From a virus, in IMG/VR virus record IMGVR_UViG_3300022900_000014, positions 1 to 53,744 of that record: a stretch of 53,744 nucleotides of DNA, one strand, 5' to 3'. Both the position numbers and the translations under genes were made by a program. Position 1 is the stretch's first letter; every line of letters starts with the position of its first letter. The notes beneath the pieces were generated by a model. That model saw only the letters and a list, made by a program, of their open reading frames with translations. It was not told the DNA's origin and did no database searches. This document shows positions 175 to 9,783 of the stretch, piece by piece.

Positions 175-519
175 TTACTTCTTGCTTTCCATAGCTGATT
201 TACCATAGAATGCAGCAACAATAGCTGCAACTGAAACGAAGTAAGTTGGAGCCATATCTCCAAGCGTTGATGATGCGTTATCTAAACCAATCACCTCTGC
301 TAGTACTACTGAAAAAGGATATAACAACATCCCAAATAAGGCAAACCATGCCATATTACGTTGAGCATCACGCATTGCATCTTCATCCTCTAGTCGCTTA
401 CGCTTAGCATCTAAGTGAAGCTCAAGTTCTTCTTTACTTAGATGCCCATCACCATTCAAATCAGCGTTACTTAATTCTGTGTCATTATCTATTGTTATTG
501 TTTTTTTATCTTCTGACAC
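175..519 (-). CDS. small membrane protein with one EF-hand
   Basis: 114 residues from a GTG start, with AGGAGA nine bases upstream. Residues about 20-31 form an EF-hand calcium loop (D-x-N-x-D-G-x-L-S-x-x-E). A charged helix follows, then two predicted membrane segments at roughly 58-78 and 90-107. The soluble N-terminus with a calcium loop and a two-helix membrane hairpin suggests an inner-membrane protein. It is the last gene of a group with the heme/copper proteins and the lysis genes. A holin-like role is possible but not shown; no family name can be given with certainty. Confidence 0.7.
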   Translation of the reverse strand: MSEDKKTITIDNDTELSNADLNGDGHLSKEELELHLDAKRKRLEDEDAMRDAQRNMAWFALFGMLLYPFSVVLAEVIGLDNASSTLGDMAPTYFVSVAAIVAAFYGKSAMESKK

Positions 520-532
520 TTTGGGATTTCTC

Positions 533-1798
533 CTATTCTACGTTTTTCCAAGTAAATGCTCCGAAGAACATTTCGTCTTCGCTCATCTGACCCCACGGTA
601 CTTCTCTTGCTGGGTCCGGATTTTTTGGATTGTCTGCACTATTGTCAAACGCACCTTCTACAAATAATCGAGTTCCTGCAGGAATAAACTTAGGCTCTTT
701 CCACGTATATGAAAGTTGCCAAGCATAGTCATATTTAGGAATGTCAATTAGTTCTTCTTCTGTACCATCAGCATAGATTGCTTTAGCTCGCATACTCTTG
801 CCACGGAAGTGCATGTGTGGCAAGAACGTGTGAAGCATAATGTCATTCTTTAGAGTAATCTCTGCTGTCTGTACAAAGTTAGGATCAAACGGTGGGATAG
901 GAGTCCAGTTGTTAGGGAAGATACAAGCACAGTCGCCTGCCATTCTCTCTTCTGGTACTACGCCTTCATCATGGAAGTATAGTCCGATTCTAGCTCTATC
1001 TGTTCTTTCTGTACCATCAGGAGTGTAGTGCAGTTGTAGATTTACAGTACTACCTGCTTTTAGTAGACCACCAGTATTTTCATCGTAGAAGTCAGGATCG
1101 CCACCAGGAACATATGCGCTGATGGTTGCGTTATCCATATTCTGTTGACCTTCACCTTGAGCACCTAGTAAACTTCCTCTGCCCTCACCTGGAGCTTGTA
1201 TAGTATTGAGCATATGGTGCATTACAGTAGGCTCAGATGGCAAGAACTGTGAACCACGCAACCACTTATCTTCTGTCAAACCAAGATCAACACTCGTATA
1301 TCGATAAGGTATTGCATTAGGACCCATTGTACCGAATGCAGGAATTTCCTGAGGTGGTACTTCGATAATCATATCGGGCTCACCATGTACCCACTCTGAA
1401 GTAGAGTACGTTGTTTCTGTTAAGGGATCTCTATCTCCATCAACAGGTGCACCAGCATCTATCCATGCTACAATAGTATCAACTTCACGATTGCTTAGCG
1501 TTCTGTGATTGATAATTGTACCCGCATACTTACGATCAATCTGGCCAGGAGGCATACGCTTTGACACAATAGCCTCTTTAATAGCAGGTGCAAAGCCTTG
1601 TACCATTTGATAGTTAGTCATAGCCCAAGGCGCTATGCCACCTTCCCTGTGACAGGCCTGACATTGTTCTACAAAGATAGGCGCAACATCTCGTGCATAA
1701 TCGATCTCATCCGCCTTTGCTGTAATAGCTATTGCACAGAGCAATGCTGTCCACACTGCTACTGTACTAAGCCAAAACATTTTCTTGATGCTATTCAT
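533..1798 (-). CDS. exported c-type heme / type II copper monooxygenase-like protein (copy 1)
   Basis: 421 residues with a cleavable signal peptide (hydrophobic 8-27, AKA cleavage before residue 30). A cytochrome c-like domain follows: heme motif CQACH at 46-50 and probable axial Met82 in RMPPG. The rest resembles the copper type II, ascorbate-dependent monooxygenase fold: His-His at 194-195, His257, and an HxH cluster at 328-330 with His323. Family members are periplasmic redox enzymes; the substrate is unknown. The start overlaps the stop of the upstream paralogue (TAATG), so the two are co-translated. It needs host cytochrome c maturation and copper. Presence in a T4-like phage is striking; a host-derived metabolic gene is the simplest reading. 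Confidence 0.8.
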   Translation of the reverse strand: MNSIKKMFWLSTVAVWTALLCAIAITAKADEIDYARDVAPIFVEQCQACHREGGIAPWAMTNYQMVQGFAPAIKEAIVSKRMPPGQIDRKYAGTIINHRTLSNREVDTIVAWIDAGAPVDGDRDPLTETTYSTSEWVHGEPDMIIEVPPQEIPAFGTMGPNAIPYRYTSVDLGLTEDKWLRGSQFLPSEPTVMHHMLNTIQAPGEGRGSLLGAQGEGQQNMDNATISAYVPGGDPDFYDENTGGLLKAGSTVNLQLHYTPDGTERTDRARIGLYFHDEGVVPEERMAGDCACIFPNNWTPIPPFDPNFVQTAEITLKNDIMLHTFLPHMHFRGKSMRAKAIYADGTEEELIDIPKYDYAWQLSYTWKEPKFIPAGTRLFVEGAFDNSADNPKNPDPAREVPWGQMSEDEMFFGAFTWKNVE

Positions 1799-3084
1799 TA
1801 ATCATCTCCCATGATACTTCTTTGTGCTTTCAATTGTTCAAATCCTTCATCGTCTAAATGAGTGATAGCAAGCCAAGCGTGAGTCATCTCATCGCCTGTG
1901 CGTGAACCGCCCATTACAAACATATCTGGATCTGGGTTATTTGGATTGTTTGCTGTGTTATCATACCATTGCTTGAGAATGATAACTGCGCCTGCTGGAA
2001 TCAAAGGAGCAGCTTCTGGAGCATACAAATGGCTATGATGCCATGTAGCTGACCATTTAGAGACTTGACTTACTTGTTCTGTTCTACCTGTTTCTGGATA
2101 GAAGATCTCTAAACTTGCTGCGTTCATTCTCAAATGGCCATGTGGCTGGAAGCTGTCCAATCGAACAGGATGATCGAAACTGTGAAAGCCCTGAGTCATT
2201 GCATATCCATTGGGTGGGACTACTAAGTCGTCCTGGTCCCCAAGGCGATACAAACTCAAATCTTGTTTGTATTTCAATCGTGCGCTTTCCTCTTCGGTGT
2301 ATAACCAAAGTCCGATCTCTACTACATTGTCTTTGATTACAGAACCTGGTGCCATTGCGCCAAGACCACCTGGAAACATGTGAATATCCCAAGATACTTC
2401 TGCGTTTGCTGGGATTGTACGACAAACTCCTTCTGGTACAATCTCTCCCCACTTTCCCATAGCGTACTCAGTGAGCATGCCTTCACGCCCTTCAGATGTA
2501 ATGATAGAGGAATTAGCATGGTGTACTACTGCTTTTGCTTCACCGCGTGGCTTTACTTGTACAGCTTTAATGCATCGATCTTCGCTAAGACCCGTTGGTA
2601 CTAAGTGCTTATGCCAAAGATCATTTCCATTTGCAGGAATATCTATAGCGACTGAAGGAATGATTGCATCTGGTGCACCGAAGTCTTCTTCAAAGTTCCA
2701 TGCTTCTGGATCTCTTAACTGAGGTGCTTGTACAATTGTATCTGGATCGCCGTATAATGAACCGCCGTTTACCCAGTCAACGATTGTGTTAATGTCTTCT
2801 TGTGCTAAACGCCAATCACCTTGCAGATCTTGAATACCAATACCATGATCGTAAGCGTAAGGAGGCATTTCTCGTGATGCTACCTTTAATGAAATAAGAG
2901 GAGCCCATGGACGAATTTGTTCATAGGTCTCGAAACTCATTGGTCCGATACCGCCTGCTCTATGACAGACTACACAGTTTTCATTTATAATGTTTGCTAC
3001 TTCGTCAGTATAGGTTTGACCGTTGACTCCACCGGTAACAAATCCTATTGCGAAGAATGTAAGCATTAACAGTATCTTCTTCAT
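1798..3084 (-). CDS. exported c-type heme / type II copper monooxygenase-like protein (copy 2)
   Basis: 428 residues, paralogue of the next gene downstream. Signal peptide (hydrophobic 4-20, cleavage near residue 22), heme motif CVVCH at 37-41, probable axial Met73 in REMPP, then a copper-monooxygenase-like region with His-His at 188-189 and HGH at 315-317. The same order of motifs and similar length as copy 1, but the sequences have diverged widely, so the pair is either an old duplication or was acquired as a two-gene unit. The two proteins could form a heterodimer or an electron-transfer pair; this is inference. Confidence 0.8.
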   Translation of the reverse strand: MKKILLMLTFFAIGFVTGGVNGQTYTDEVANIINENCVVCHRAGGIGPMSFETYEQIRPWAPLISLKVASREMPPYAYDHGIGIQDLQGDWRLAQEDINTIVDWVNGGSLYGDPDTIVQAPQLRDPEAWNFEEDFGAPDAIIPSVAIDIPANGNDLWHKHLVPTGLSEDRCIKAVQVKPRGEAKAVVHHANSSIITSEGREGMLTEYAMGKWGEIVPEGVCRTIPANAEVSWDIHMFPGGLGAMAPGSVIKDNVVEIGLWLYTEEESARLKYKQDLSLYRLGDQDDLVVPPNGYAMTQGFHSFDHPVRLDSFQPHGHLRMNAASLEIFYPETGRTEQVSQVSKWSATWHHSHLYAPEAAPLIPAGAVIILKQWYDNTANNPNNPDPDMFVMGGSRTGDEMTHAWLAITHLDDEGFEQLKAQRSIMGDD

Positions 3085-3097
3085 ATCGTGCTCCTTG

Positions 3098-3415
3098 CTA
3101 TTTTTTTCGTTTTAATGAATTAATTTCTTTCTTCAACTTCTCCATTTCTTGCATTATTTCTGTTGTGCCGCCAGGAGCAACAGGAGGATGCGACCAAGCT
3201 TCTAGATGATCGATTCTTTCAGCTAATATAGGATAATCGGATCTCCATTTAGCTTCTTTCTTTGCAATTTGGATATCGTACTTAACAGCAAGATATTCCA
3301 TAAAGGCATCTAGCTTCTTTTGAAACCATATACCCATTCGGGTAGTAAGAAACCATTTACCAAAGGCAGAACCAAATACGCCAGTAATTGCAGCCCTAAT
3401 TAATAAAACCCACAT
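3098..3415 (-). CDS. N-terminally anchored coiled-coil protein in the lysis group
   Basis: 105 residues. One hydrophobic segment at about 3-24, then a basic and helical region and a C-terminal Lys/Glu-rich coiled coil. It sits directly after the lipase gene (stop and start share bases near 3415) and near the lysozyme. The topology would suit an i-spanin or a holin regulator, but a better spanin pair lies at 17610-18369, so the role is left open. Confidence 0.65.
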   Translation of the reverse strand: MWVLLIRAAITGVFGSAFGKWFLTTRMGIWFQKKLDAFMEYLAVKYDIQIAKKEAKWRSDYPILAERIDHLEAWSHPPVAPGGTTEIMQEMEKLKKEINSLKRKK

Positions 3416-4131
3416 TAGTCGTTATCCTCTAGGTGCTTGCAGTATTCGTCCATACCATGATCACGAACTCCATCAAATACAGTACCATTTCTCCAAGCTG
3501 CTCTACGACCACGCCAACCATCTTTGAATCTCTGCCACCAAGTCATCTTACGGACATTACCATAGAAGTTGATATAATGTAATTCACCATGATGCTTGTA
3601 CCAAAGCAAGGCAGGAGGAACAGAAGGAACGATATCGTTATTGTTTACAGTACGATAATGCGGCACTTTTAGTTCTTTGCACTTTGAAGGTGTAGCATTA
3701 CGTGGACAACCGAATGTGTAGAGTGCTTCTGCCGTTGGATAATGGAAACAGAAAATAGAAGCAATCGCTGCTCCGAGACTGTGACCTGTTACATACACTG
3801 GACGAGCTTTTCGACCCATGAGTTTCGCCACTTCGCCATGTACTTTGAGTTCTAACTTTTCGTACTCTTCATAGAAACCTTCGTGAAAGCCTCTTTCATG
3901 AGTTGCTTCCAAGTCAGCAAATACATCACTCTTTTCAGTTGGCTCAGTGCCACGGAATGCTACAGTGATTCGTTCTTTATTACCAAGCACATAAGCTTGT
4001 GCGCCTTCGATATCAAAAAACGTAATGGAAGTAAACCCAAGGGCTTTCCATTCTTTACGTACTTCTTTATCTAAGTCTTTATATGCTAATCTAGCAATAC
4101 ATGCGTGTGCGTGAAACTCATTCGAGATCAT
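3415..4131 (-). CDS. class 3 lipase / esterase (alpha/beta hydrolase)
   Basis: 238 residues with the class 3 lipase pattern: oxyanion-side motif AFRGT at 58-62, nucleophile elbow GHSLG with Ser118, acid Asp166 in NNDIVP, and His185 in a HGxLHY context. No signal peptide is seen, so it acts in the cytoplasm or reaches membranes after holin action. Its place between a membrane protein and the lysozyme suggests that it attacks host phospholipids or esters during lysis. Confidence 0.85.
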   Translation of the reverse strand: MISNEFHAHACIARLAYKDLDKEVRKEWKALGFTSITFFDIEGAQAYVLGNKERITVAFRGTEPTEKSDVFADLEATHERGFHEGFYEEYEKLELKVHGEVAKLMGRKARPVYVTGHSLGAAIASIFCFHYPTAEALYTFGCPRNATPSKCKELKVPHYRTVNNNDIVPSVPPALLWYKHHGELHYINFYGNVRKMTWWQRFKDGWRGRRAAWRNGTVFDGVRDHGMDEYCKHLEDND

Positions 4132-4146
4132 TGTATATCCTCCAAG

Positions 4147-4608
4147 TTATCGATCTAAGCTAGCCAAATTCTCAAGCCTTACCATTAGTCTTTCAGCTCG
4201 ATTAGTTACTTGATCGTACCAACGGCTGTCTCTACCTTCTTTTGCTGCTTCTACCCAATCGCCAGCTTCGATAGCTGAATTGAATTTCTTAAATCCGCTA
4301 AGACGAGGACGACCCATGTTAAACATCATGTTAACCAGGACCTGCTGGATTTCGTCTGGTAAGTCTCTAAATGTCCCTTCTCCGTATAGAGTTCCACACT
4401 CTCCGATTGCAGTATCGAGATCTCGCTCAAAACATGACCTGACTCGCTCTTCAGTAACTGGAGTTCCAACTGGCCTTCCGAATTCCTCGTCACTTTCGAG
4501 GACAAGGTGACCGACTCCAAAGGTGGGTAAGCCGAGATGGTCGAGATAGGTTTCATATACTACACCTTCGTCTATTTTTAATTGTTCGTAAACTGCTTCT
4601 CTATTCAT
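4147..4608 (-). CDS. e: T4-type lysozyme (endolysin)
   Basis: 153 residues, close to T4 lysozyme (164). The catalytic triad of the family is visible: Glu14 in IDEG, Asp23, and Thr29 just before GVGH. The C-terminal SRWYDQxxNRAxR motif also matches T4 lysozyme. It hydrolyses peptidoglycan (N-acetylmuramidase). No export signal, so a holin must let it out. It neighbours a lipase and two membrane proteins that may complete the lysis set. Confidence 0.93.
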   Translation of the reverse strand: MNREAVYEQLKIDEGVVYETYLDHLGLPTFGVGHLVLESDEEFGRPVGTPVTEERVRSCFERDLDTAIGECGTLYGEGTFRDLPDEIQQVLVNMMFNMGRPRLSGFKKFNSAIEAGDWVEAAKEGRDSRWYDQVTNRAERLMVRLENLASLDR

Positions 4609-4798: not shown

Positions 4799-5059
4799 TT
4801 ACCCCATATATATTTTTTGTAAGTGCGTTTCAAATTCTTCTACTTTGGCTAATCGATTCGGCCAAAGGATATATTCCTTTTCAGGATTCTTTTTTAGATT
4901 CGTTAGTAGCGGAACGATAGAATTATAAAGACTATCTATCTTTGCTTGAAGTTGCTCTACATCAGATGATGTTTGTTGAAGCTGTGTAGAGGCTTGTTGA
5001 ACTGCTTCTAATTCAGTTTCATCAACAGCAGTAAATCCAAAATCAAATATGTCTGTCAT
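4799..5059 (-). CDS. conserved phage protein, FDFGFTAVDE family, coiled coil
   Basis: 86 residues using the ATG at 5059, which shares TGATG with the stop of the kinase gene and has AGAGGA at good spacing; a GTG one codon earlier is less likely. The N-terminal FDFGFTAVDE followed by a Glu/Gln-rich coiled coil (about 15-50) is, from memory, a recurring hypothetical in cyanomyoviruses. Function unknown. Confidence 0.72.
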   Translation of the reverse strand: MTDIFDFGFTAVDETELEAVQQASTQLQQTSSDVEQLQAKIDSLYNSIVPLLTNLKKNPEKEYILWPNRLAKVEEFETHLQKIYMG

Positions 5060-5724
5060 CACGTATTCCTCTGTTTGTCAATCCACATTGTAGCTTGTTT
5101 ACTTTGTGGTTCAGCTTTTGACCATGTCATCATTTTCTTATATACGCTTTGAGTAGCTCCGTCAAAATTAGATCCATCAGAATTATCTACTACATAGAAT
5201 TTGCTCTTAAATAAGTTTTGAAACTTACCTATATTCTTTTGAACATCTTTCCACATAGCAGTAACCTGATCATCTGGCAGAGTCCTTTCGCGTTTAGCAT
5301 TACGAGCGAGTGCAGTATCTAAATCGGTATTTACAAATACCATTGCCACTTCGTATCCTAAAGCTCTAAGGTTAACTACTTGTCTTTCGATTTTGCTATA
5401 GTCTTTACCAGTACCATCAATAACTAATCCAAGTCGACCGCTTATAGCTAAGTCTAATTTCTTACCAGTAAGTTCTGATGCGCCTTTGCGAATCTGTTGA
5501 CCTTGTGGAGAGAATATAGTTTCTGGATCTGGAGTAAGACCAGCTTTTTTCAAAGCAGCTTCGAATGCGTTATCAGAATTAATTAGCTTAAATCCTAATG
5601 CAGGTAAAGCAGTTTTTCCAACAATAAAGGACTTACCAGATCCTGGTCCTCCTGCTAGAAAAACAGCTTTAAATATTGCGGGGTCATTAACCCCTTCTTC
5701 TAAGTATTCACTAAAAGATAACAT
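5059..5724 (-). CDS. P-loop kinase (zeta-toxin-like) with capsid-targeting-like N-terminus
   Basis: 221 residues. Walker A GGPGSGKS at 25-32, a LINSD acidic motif and an Arg-rich lid region (NAKRER) place it among small P-loop nucleotide or sugar kinases related to zeta toxins. Residues 1-11 (MLSFSEYLEEG) match the T4 capsid-targeting peptide layout, with Leu8-x-Glu10 as a possible prohead-protease site. A TATAAATA late promoter lies about 25 bases upstream. It may be packaged and injected; the substrate is unknown. Confidence 0.75.
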   Translation of the reverse strand: MLSFSEYLEEGVNDPAIFKAVFLAGGPGSGKSFIVGKTALPALGFKLINSDNAFEAALKKAGLTPDPETIFSPQGQQIRKGASELTGKKLDLAISGRLGLVIDGTGKDYSKIERQVVNLRALGYEVAMVFVNTDLDTALARNAKRERTLPDDQVTAMWKDVQKNIGKFQNLFKSKFYVVDNSDGSNFDGATQSVYKKMMTWSKAEPQSKQATMWIDKQRNT

Positions 5725-5749: not shown

Positions 5750-5757
5750 TATTTATA
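5750..5757 (-). promoter_or_regulatory. T4-type late promoter
   Basis: TATAAATA on the minus strand, 26 bases from the start codon of the P-loop kinase gene and not inside a coding region. This is the octamer recognised by gp55-programmed RNA polymerase in T4. Confidence 0.65.
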
Positions 5758-8905: not shown

Positions 8906-9136
8906 TTAATATTTGCCACCGGCATTACTTACAAAAGCATTCATTTCTTTGCAAAGCTCTTGAATATCCTGCATATTAGGATATGCTGGTAGATCCGGAT
9001 ACTCAACAGGGGTTCCTGCATCTTTCAATGCATGGTACCTGTCTATGACTTCATCCTTCTTTACATGATACTCGTCTACAAGTAAATTTTTTGCTTCCAT
9101 AAGCATATTAAATCTTAGTTCATACGGATTTGACAT
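8906..9136 (-). CDS. conserved small protein, unknown function
   Basis: 76 residues starting MSNPYELRFNMLMEAK. The ATG at 9136 has AAGGAG upstream; an earlier in-frame ATG at 9178 lies in the tmRNA 3' element and is rejected. Helical, charged, with a Pro/Tyr-rich middle (VEYPDLPAYPN). Resembles small hypotheticals of T4-like marine phages. Probably co-transcribed with the tmRNA. Confidence 0.7.
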   Translation of the reverse strand: MSNPYELRFNMLMEAKNLLVDEYHVKKDEVIDRYHALKDAGTPVEYPDLPAYPNMQDIQELCKEMNAFVSNAGGKY

Positions 9137-9169
9137 ATTTGTCTCCTTGTGTGTTGTGTGTGTTAAGCT

Positions 9170-9203
9170 TGGGCCCATTTGGTTATAAGGCGGTGCCCAT
9201 ACC
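9170..9203 (-). repeat. 3' end of tmRNA coding piece (repeat copy 2)
   Basis: Second member of the 34-base direct repeat. Its outer TGGGC and GCCCA can pair, so it probably forms the last stem or part of a pseudoknot of the tmRNA coding piece. Confidence 0.75.
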
Positions 9204-9212
9204 CCATCTAGC

Positions 9213-9245
9213 TTATGCCGCTAGAGCGTAAACATTATCGTTTGC
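9213..9245 (-). other. tmRNA tag reading frame, ANDNVYALAA-stop
   Basis: The resume codon GCA at 9243-9245 is followed by codons for NDNVYALAA and TAA at 9213-9215. The tag is close to the E. coli tag (ANDENYALAA) and keeps the LAA end read by ClpXP. The stop codon lies in the loop of a CTAGC/GCTAG hairpin, as in tmRNA helix P5. Confidence 0.9.
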
Positions 9246-9399
9246 GTTTATTTTAATTTAGTTTTTACGTCTACTCTGACGATTCTCCATAAGTCTTCAG
9301 TCGTCTGTCGAATCTAAAACGCCCCCATATGTTTTATTGGTGGAGGCGAGGGGAGTTGCACCCCTGTCCAAACTTCCTATCTCTTACTTCAACGAATTC

Positions 9400-9783
9400 T
9401 TAGTCTTCGAATGTATGCCTAAACAATCGTCCATTATACTCAAAGGTAACTGTTTCACCTCTTTGTACTTGTATCGGAACTTCTTCACAAAACTCTTTCT
9501 GAACAATCCTGGATTGAGCATTATTCTTAGCAACGTTAGAACCGATAATAGCTCCAGCAATTGTAGCTGCTGTTTTACCAGAACCGTTTCCAACTTGATG
9601 TCCTAAGACACCGCCAATGACTCCACCCACTATACCTGATGTTGCGGTATTATCTACGAAGACATCTCTAACTACGCATTGCTTCTGATAAATCGTAACA
9701 TATCTCGGTGTTGTACTTAGCACAACCACATCAGCAAAAGCAAATGTTGGTAAGAGTGCTCCGAGTAAAAGAAATTGTTTCAT
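9400..9783 (-). CDS. exported glycine-zipper envelope protein
   Basis: 127 residues. A signal peptide (1-17, cleavage at AFA-DV) precedes a glycine-zipper region at about 50-83 (GIVGGVIGGVLGHQVG, then AGAIIGSNVA) of the 17-kDa surface antigen/SlyB type. A short beta-rich C-terminal domain carries one of two Cys residues. Such proteins sit in the outer membrane or periplasm. The phage may use it to alter the host envelope or block superinfection; this is inference. It ends inside the tmRNA acceptor region's leader. Confidence 0.78.
   Translation of the reverse strand: MKQFLLLGALLPTFAFADVVVLSTTPRYVTIYQKQCVVRDVFVDNTATSGIVGGVIGGVLGHQVGNGSGKTAATIAGAIIGSNVAKNNAQSRIVQKEFCEEVPIQVQRGETVTFEYNGRLFRHTFED

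Follow-up and report, generated by a model that had tools for sequence, protein, structure and literature searches.

The virus record analysed here (IMG/VR IMGVR_UViG_3300022900_000014) is a linear stretch of 53,744 bases with a T4-type gene set, and is referred to as a whole as the window. Its DNA polymerase is closest to that of Phage C48C1 (Kyanoviridae), with an identity of 56%. A packed gene run on the minus strand encodes, in order, a lysozyme, a lipase, a small protein, two larger proteins designated B and A, and an EF-hand membrane protein. The features of the run are as follows.

4147..4608, minus strand: T4-type lysozyme (PF00959, E 6.8e-8), in the same gene run as B and A
3415..4131, minus strand: class-3 lipase (PF01764, E 3.6e-17), in the same gene run as B and A
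3098..3415, minus strand: small protein of 105 residues with a hydrophobic N-terminus, upstream of B, in the window phage and close relatives
1798..3084, minus strand: gene B, 428 residues, with a signal-peptide-like N-terminus, a heme-c domain and a predicted PHM/DBH-like two-copper monooxygenase domain
2962..2976, minus strand: heme-attachment motif of B, C37-V-V-C40-H41, invariant
2866..2868, minus strand: candidate axial Met73 of B (MPP), invariant
2518..2523, minus strand: predicted CuH ligands H188 and H189 of B, from conservation and DBH alignment
2380..2382, minus strand: predicted CuH ligand H235 of B, from conservation and DBH alignment
2134..2142, minus strand: predicted CuM ligands H315-x-H317 of B, from conservation and DBH alignment
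1885..1887, minus strand: predicted CuM ligand M400 of B (DEM motif), from conservation, outside the DBH alignment
1796..1800, minus strand: TAATG, where the stop of B overlaps the start of A, read from the sequence
533..1798, minus strand: gene A, 421 residues, with a signal-peptide-like N-terminus, a heme-c domain and a predicted PHM/DBH-like two-copper monooxygenase domain
1649..1663, minus strand: heme-attachment motif of A, C46-Q-A-C49-H50, from conservation
1553..1555, minus strand: candidate axial Met82 of A (MPP), from conservation
1214..1219, minus strand: predicted CuH ligands H194 and H195 of A, from conservation and DBH alignment
1028..1030, minus strand: predicted CuH ligand H257 of A, from conservation and DBH alignment
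809..817, minus strand: predicted CuM ligands H328-x-H330 of A, from conservation and DBH alignment
569..571, minus strand: predicted CuM ligand M410 of A (DEM motif), from conservation, outside the DBH alignment
175..519, minus strand: EF-hand membrane protein, downstream of A, in a position kept only in close relatives

Genes A and B are intact, complete open reading frames, and their overlap at TAATG, in agreement with the first-pass annotation of this DNA, suggests that their translation is coupled. The two proteins are paralogues that share 25% identity over nearly their full length (E 4e-32). The N-termini of both are hydrophobic and, judged by eye, resemble signal peptides, as had been claimed. 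The single CxxCH motif and the Met in an MPP context noted earlier for each protein are present and invariant (C46-C49-H50 and M82 in A; C37-C40-H41 and M73 in B), and the HH and HxH clusters turn out to belong to a fuller set that includes a third CuH His and a CuM Met. These six predicted copper ligands, together with the CxxCH motif and its Met, show 100% conservation across the 55 A and 74 B sequences compared from viruses, and the same copper and heme ligands are invariant in a 22-member alignment of viral and bacterial A and B proteins. Values of dN of about 0.06–0.12, far below a dS of 0.9–1.6 that is itself near saturation, indicate that strong purifying selection acts on both genes, which are accordingly no chance reading frames. 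A promoter-like TATAAATA is found at 5750–5757, 26 bases before the gene (5059–5724) that opens the gene run. The window contains 7 matches to the T4 late promoter against 6.7 expected by chance, and late timing of A and B is therefore not supported.

AlphaFold models of A and B, built from 36–38 viral homologues, are of moderate confidence, with a pLDDT of 69.6 and a pTM of 0.68 for B, and of 58.3 and 0.52 for A. A Foldseek search of the PDB revealed that the first 31 matches of each model are all PHM or DBH structures (E 8e-10 to 1e-7 for B, 6.5e-9 to 1.5e-6 for A), with a clear gap before the next match in both lists. The target-normalised TM-scores of the models to PHM are only 0.41–0.57. 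A profile of the mixed viral and bacterial family matches human dopamine beta-hydroxylase (DBH; PDB code 4zel) with an E value of 1.1e-6. DBH was reached only by this mixed profile; with A, B or profiles of viral sequences only, PDB sequence searches had no match at E ≤ 1. The HH, HY and HxH motifs of the family align with 4zel chain positions 223/224, 294 and 373/375, which, with an offset of 39 residues, we take to be His262/263, His333 and His412/414 of DBH. DBH counterparts are thus found for five of the six copper ligands; the sixth, the Met of the DEM motif, lies beyond the aligned stretch.

The first-pass annotation had proposed profile searches for cytochrome c and copper monooxygenase domains. 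Both domains appear, although with scores below the Pfam cut-offs: the fused heme domain of A and B matches cytochrome c weakly, under the gathering cut-off, and A reaches 11.9 bits for Cu2_monoox_C against a cut-off of 23 (15–19 bits in the bacterial relatives). B gave no match to Cu2_monoox_C, and neither A nor B has a match in PHROGs. Structure prediction, by which the proposal was to stand or fall, recovered the PHM/DBH fold in both models, and, at the level of sequence, the five histidines are not misplaced but align with DBH ligands. The fold comparison, the DBH match with its aligned ligands and the conservation of those ligands support the reading of type II copper monooxygenases, and on sequence and model evidence it is highly probable that A and B belong to the PHM/DBH superfamily.

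DBH, like PHM, has its two copper sites reduced singly by ascorbate. In PHM, the two sites receive one electron at a time from ascorbate (PMC6123673). A and B resemble these enzymes in the predicted fold and in the ligand set (HH + H for CuH and HxH + M for CuM), and O2-dependent C–H hydroxylation is anticipated by analogy. They differ in being phage-encoded, in their low identity of about 10–15%, and in the fused heme-c domain that probably serves as reductant where those enzymes use ascorbate, a fusion suggesting that the respiratory cytochrome pool takes over this role. Two positions before the first His of HxH, A has a Leu and B a Gln in place of the Arg that, we presume, contacts the peptide carboxylate in PHM. 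Judged from this motif offset only, the peptide-binding residues of PHM seem not to be conserved, and a peptide substrate would consequently not be favoured.

From sequence and models, we consider that A and B are copper monooxygenases of the PHM/DBH type, exported and linked to cytochrome c, that act as an auxiliary metabolic module in infection, with a probability of about 0.7. Most likely, they would work in the periplasm as O2-dependent hydroxylases, with heme c as the route by which their copper is reduced. During infection, we infer, the proteins would be exported by Sec, matured by the cytochrome c system of the host, and loaded with heme and copper. The N-terminal heme would accept electrons from the periplasmic cytochrome c pool of the host and relay them to the two copper sites, CuH (His-His-His) and CuM (His-His-Met), in the role that ascorbate has in the animal enzymes. 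At CuM, O2 would be activated and a C–H bond of a small periplasmic substrate hydroxylated. A and B would work as a pair, each with its own substrate or the two joined in a heterodimer. We rate the electron path from heme to copper at slightly better than even odds, and our confidence in any given benefit to the phage is low. In several lineages, a reading frame of 104–153 residues between B and A encodes a stand-alone cytochrome c, which matches Pfam Cytochrom_C (PF00034, E 2.7e-8), exceeds the cut-off in all three cases tested, and might be the source from which these phages draw the electrons. The separate gene is absent from the window and missing from most cassettes; its position within the cassette is the strongest hint that the copper sites receive their electrons from heme c.

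The two coppers and one heme predicted per chain could also serve to buffer redox state or copper, the proteins consuming O2 or binding the metal and so protecting the periplasm of the infected cell, with no particular organic substrate involved. In one bacterial genome, a His/Met-rich protein is encoded next to B-like genes (L206:11403-12614), as might be expected of such a function. We nevertheless consider it improbable: the full set of CuH and CuM ligands, in a PHM-like fold, is more in line with catalysis, and the divergence of the two paralogues suggests that each has a defined task of its own.

The cassette is common in uncultured T4-like viruses. Pattern searches of IMG/VR, which yield lower bounds, identified at least 258 stretches encoding B and at least 119 encoding A. 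The search for the same pair in viral genomes, suggested at the outset, recovered 48 distinct pairs in the fetched loci, all with B followed by A on one strand. In about 15 distinct cassettes, B is not followed by A; the absence was confirmed across the whole record for those searched, and A is thus not always needed. No relative of A or B was found in 50,697 GenBank phage records, and no PHM-like protein is among the viral structure matches. The T4-like setting initially described for the pair is borne out by hundreds of viral homologues with phage neighbours, as well as by the gene set of the window; gp23 scores over the cut-off in 6 of 36 tested records. A and B reside in genuine virus genomes and have cellular homologues, as auxiliary metabolic genes do.

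The position of the cassette varies between phages. The pair lies directly downstream of the major capsid gene gp23, with the scaffold gene nearby, in L019 and L061, and after gp32 in L086. It is found beside a giant tail-fibre gene in L100, with similarly placed large genes in L046, L053 and L058, beside Hsp20 in L016, and near lysozyme in L142 and elsewhere, the window included. A taurine dioxygenase-like gene (L049:9795-10961) is located near B in a viral contig of 230 kb. The statement that the pair adjoins the lysis genes holds for the window phage (lysozyme at 4147–4608) and for a minority of its relatives only: of the 38 distinct cassettes with a 3-kb flank on both sides, 12 have a lysozyme gene within 3 kb, and the lysis neighbourhood is therefore not general.

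The tight same-strand run with lysozyme and lipase in the window, those 12 cassettes and the predicted export would be in keeping with late periplasmic oxidases that modify a lipid, peptidoglycan or an outer-membrane component and thereby aid lysis or block superinfection. The cassettes placed after gp23 or gp32, or beside the tail-fibre, Hsp20 or taurine dioxygenase genes, conflict with this accessory role, and lysis genes do not adjoin the bacterial homologues; we regard it as rather unlikely. A virion-associated or structural use of the fold, in place of catalysis, is very improbable given the strict conservation of the six copper and the heme ligands, the signal-peptide-like N-termini and the existence of bacterial homologues outside phages. 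The fold of PHM is a double jelly roll, like that of some capsid proteins (PMC8812541), and the location of the pair immediately after the major capsid gene in two lineages would also be compatible with such a use.

Copper oxygenase components have been found in viruses before. The gene pmoC, for a copper membrane monooxygenase subunit, occurs in phages. Likewise, phage-encoded amoC specifies a copper membrane monooxygenase subunit and has been proposed as a metabolic gene (PMC8115048). Both are virus-borne parts of a copper oxygenase, but they are unrelated membrane subunits, whereas A and B are predicted to be entire, soluble enzymes, each equipped with a heme relay. To our knowledge, virus-encoded oxygenases are single subunits or cytosolic iron enzymes. 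The first-pass annotation knew of no described phage system of this kind, and none is reported in the largely open-access journal literature searched or present in the GenBank phage records. The PHM/DBH superfamily and viral metabolic genes are already known; new in that literature would be a viral pair of putative heme-linked, exported copper oxygenases. Such a complete pair, accompanied in some phages by its own electron carrier, would represent a class of enzyme new to viruses and would depend on the cytochrome c maturation and copper supply of the host. We tentatively envisage, at somewhat less than even odds, a virus-borne periplasmic redox module, inserted in many different phage genomes, in which two copper oxygenases are powered through heme c, some phages adding a cytochrome c shuttle of their own. 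The module would tap the respiratory chain of the host during infection, and its target for hydroxylation would be an abundant metabolite, of host or marine origin, or a component of the envelope.

Bacterial relatives were sampled in Pseudomonadales, the order of the sole MAG match (L151) in a narrow scan. A-type proteins are encoded in 16 of 195 Pseudomonadales genomes, with up to ten matches each, and in three other genomes among 398 across the phylum. They keep the heme and copper domains, with a redoxin domain preceding the former, and have 570–700 residues and several copies per genome; no function was found for these redoxin, cytochrome c and copper monooxygenase proteins. Some have a C-terminal EF-hand tail (L164, L168); the EF-hand protein of the window (175–519, minus strand) has membrane segments. 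Phage A is 50–55% identical to the closest of them over the heme and copper domains, with the same ligands (55% for the best, which is fused to a redoxin domain), but has neither redoxin domain nor EF-hand tail. The phage versions, being short and free of redoxin, offer a way into a large and uncharacterised family of bacterial enzymes.

B-type genes occur in four of the 16 genomes (G083, G139, G185 and G046), and A-like and B-like genes are near each other in some bacterial genomes. The B-type proteins (about 440–470 residues) have the same domains as window B, without redoxin, and the closest (L203:10736-12061) is 83% identical to it. A family of exported proteins of about 310 residues is encoded in the vicinity of the bacterial B-type genes (L203:9554-10477, L204:3964-4896, L205:11417-12352, L206:10480-11403, L207:7933-8865 and L209:3571-4392), directly adjoining B in most and separated by a gap in L205. 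Most members end near a QCCW motif, and those scanned have no Pfam match. No homologue was found in the viral loci or the window, where B is paired with A instead, and this protein is possibly a partner lost in phages.

For A, the data are compatible with a single viral clade that excludes the bacterial sequences (AU p 0.996). In the B tree, bacterial sequences are nested among viral ones, which suggests repeated exchange of B between bacteria and phages, but a tree with all viral B in one clade is not rejected either (AU p 0.35). A and B probably derive from Pseudomonadales enzymes, and the cassette points to this order as hosts or gene donors. The MAG match, on a 7-kb contig, comprises a full phage-like A (73%) and a B cut near residue 174 (L151, 4830–6858), and the GC content drops along the contig from about 0.62 to 0.41; this chimeric-looking locus may be a chimera, a remnant or a binning error. 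Together with the 83% identity of bacterial B, it might hint at host contamination or misassembly in the viral bins, a danger flagged at first pass. The chance of this is negligible: T4 head, tail, replication and lysis genes stand beside the pair in many viral contigs, the GC content of the window is 0.38 as compared with about 0.5–0.6 at the bacterial loci, and viral A fits a clade of its own.

The window encodes a permuted, two-piece tmRNA (9122–9430, minus strand) with the tag ANDNVYALAA; the tags ANDEAFALAA, ANDSVYSLAA and ANDDVYALAA are found in other cassette phages. Two-piece tmRNAs have been reported in marine phages (PMC9004378). The tmRNAs of the cassette phages are permuted, whereas those of the Pseudomonadales genomes are in one piece, and the comparison thus neither names nor excludes a host. 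In three genomes, clusters of reading frames of 300–365 residues match parts of the family (G163:C20:40090-44354, G046:C1:371149-375412 and G112:C1:148202-152541), the heme and copper domains being seemingly split over separate genes.
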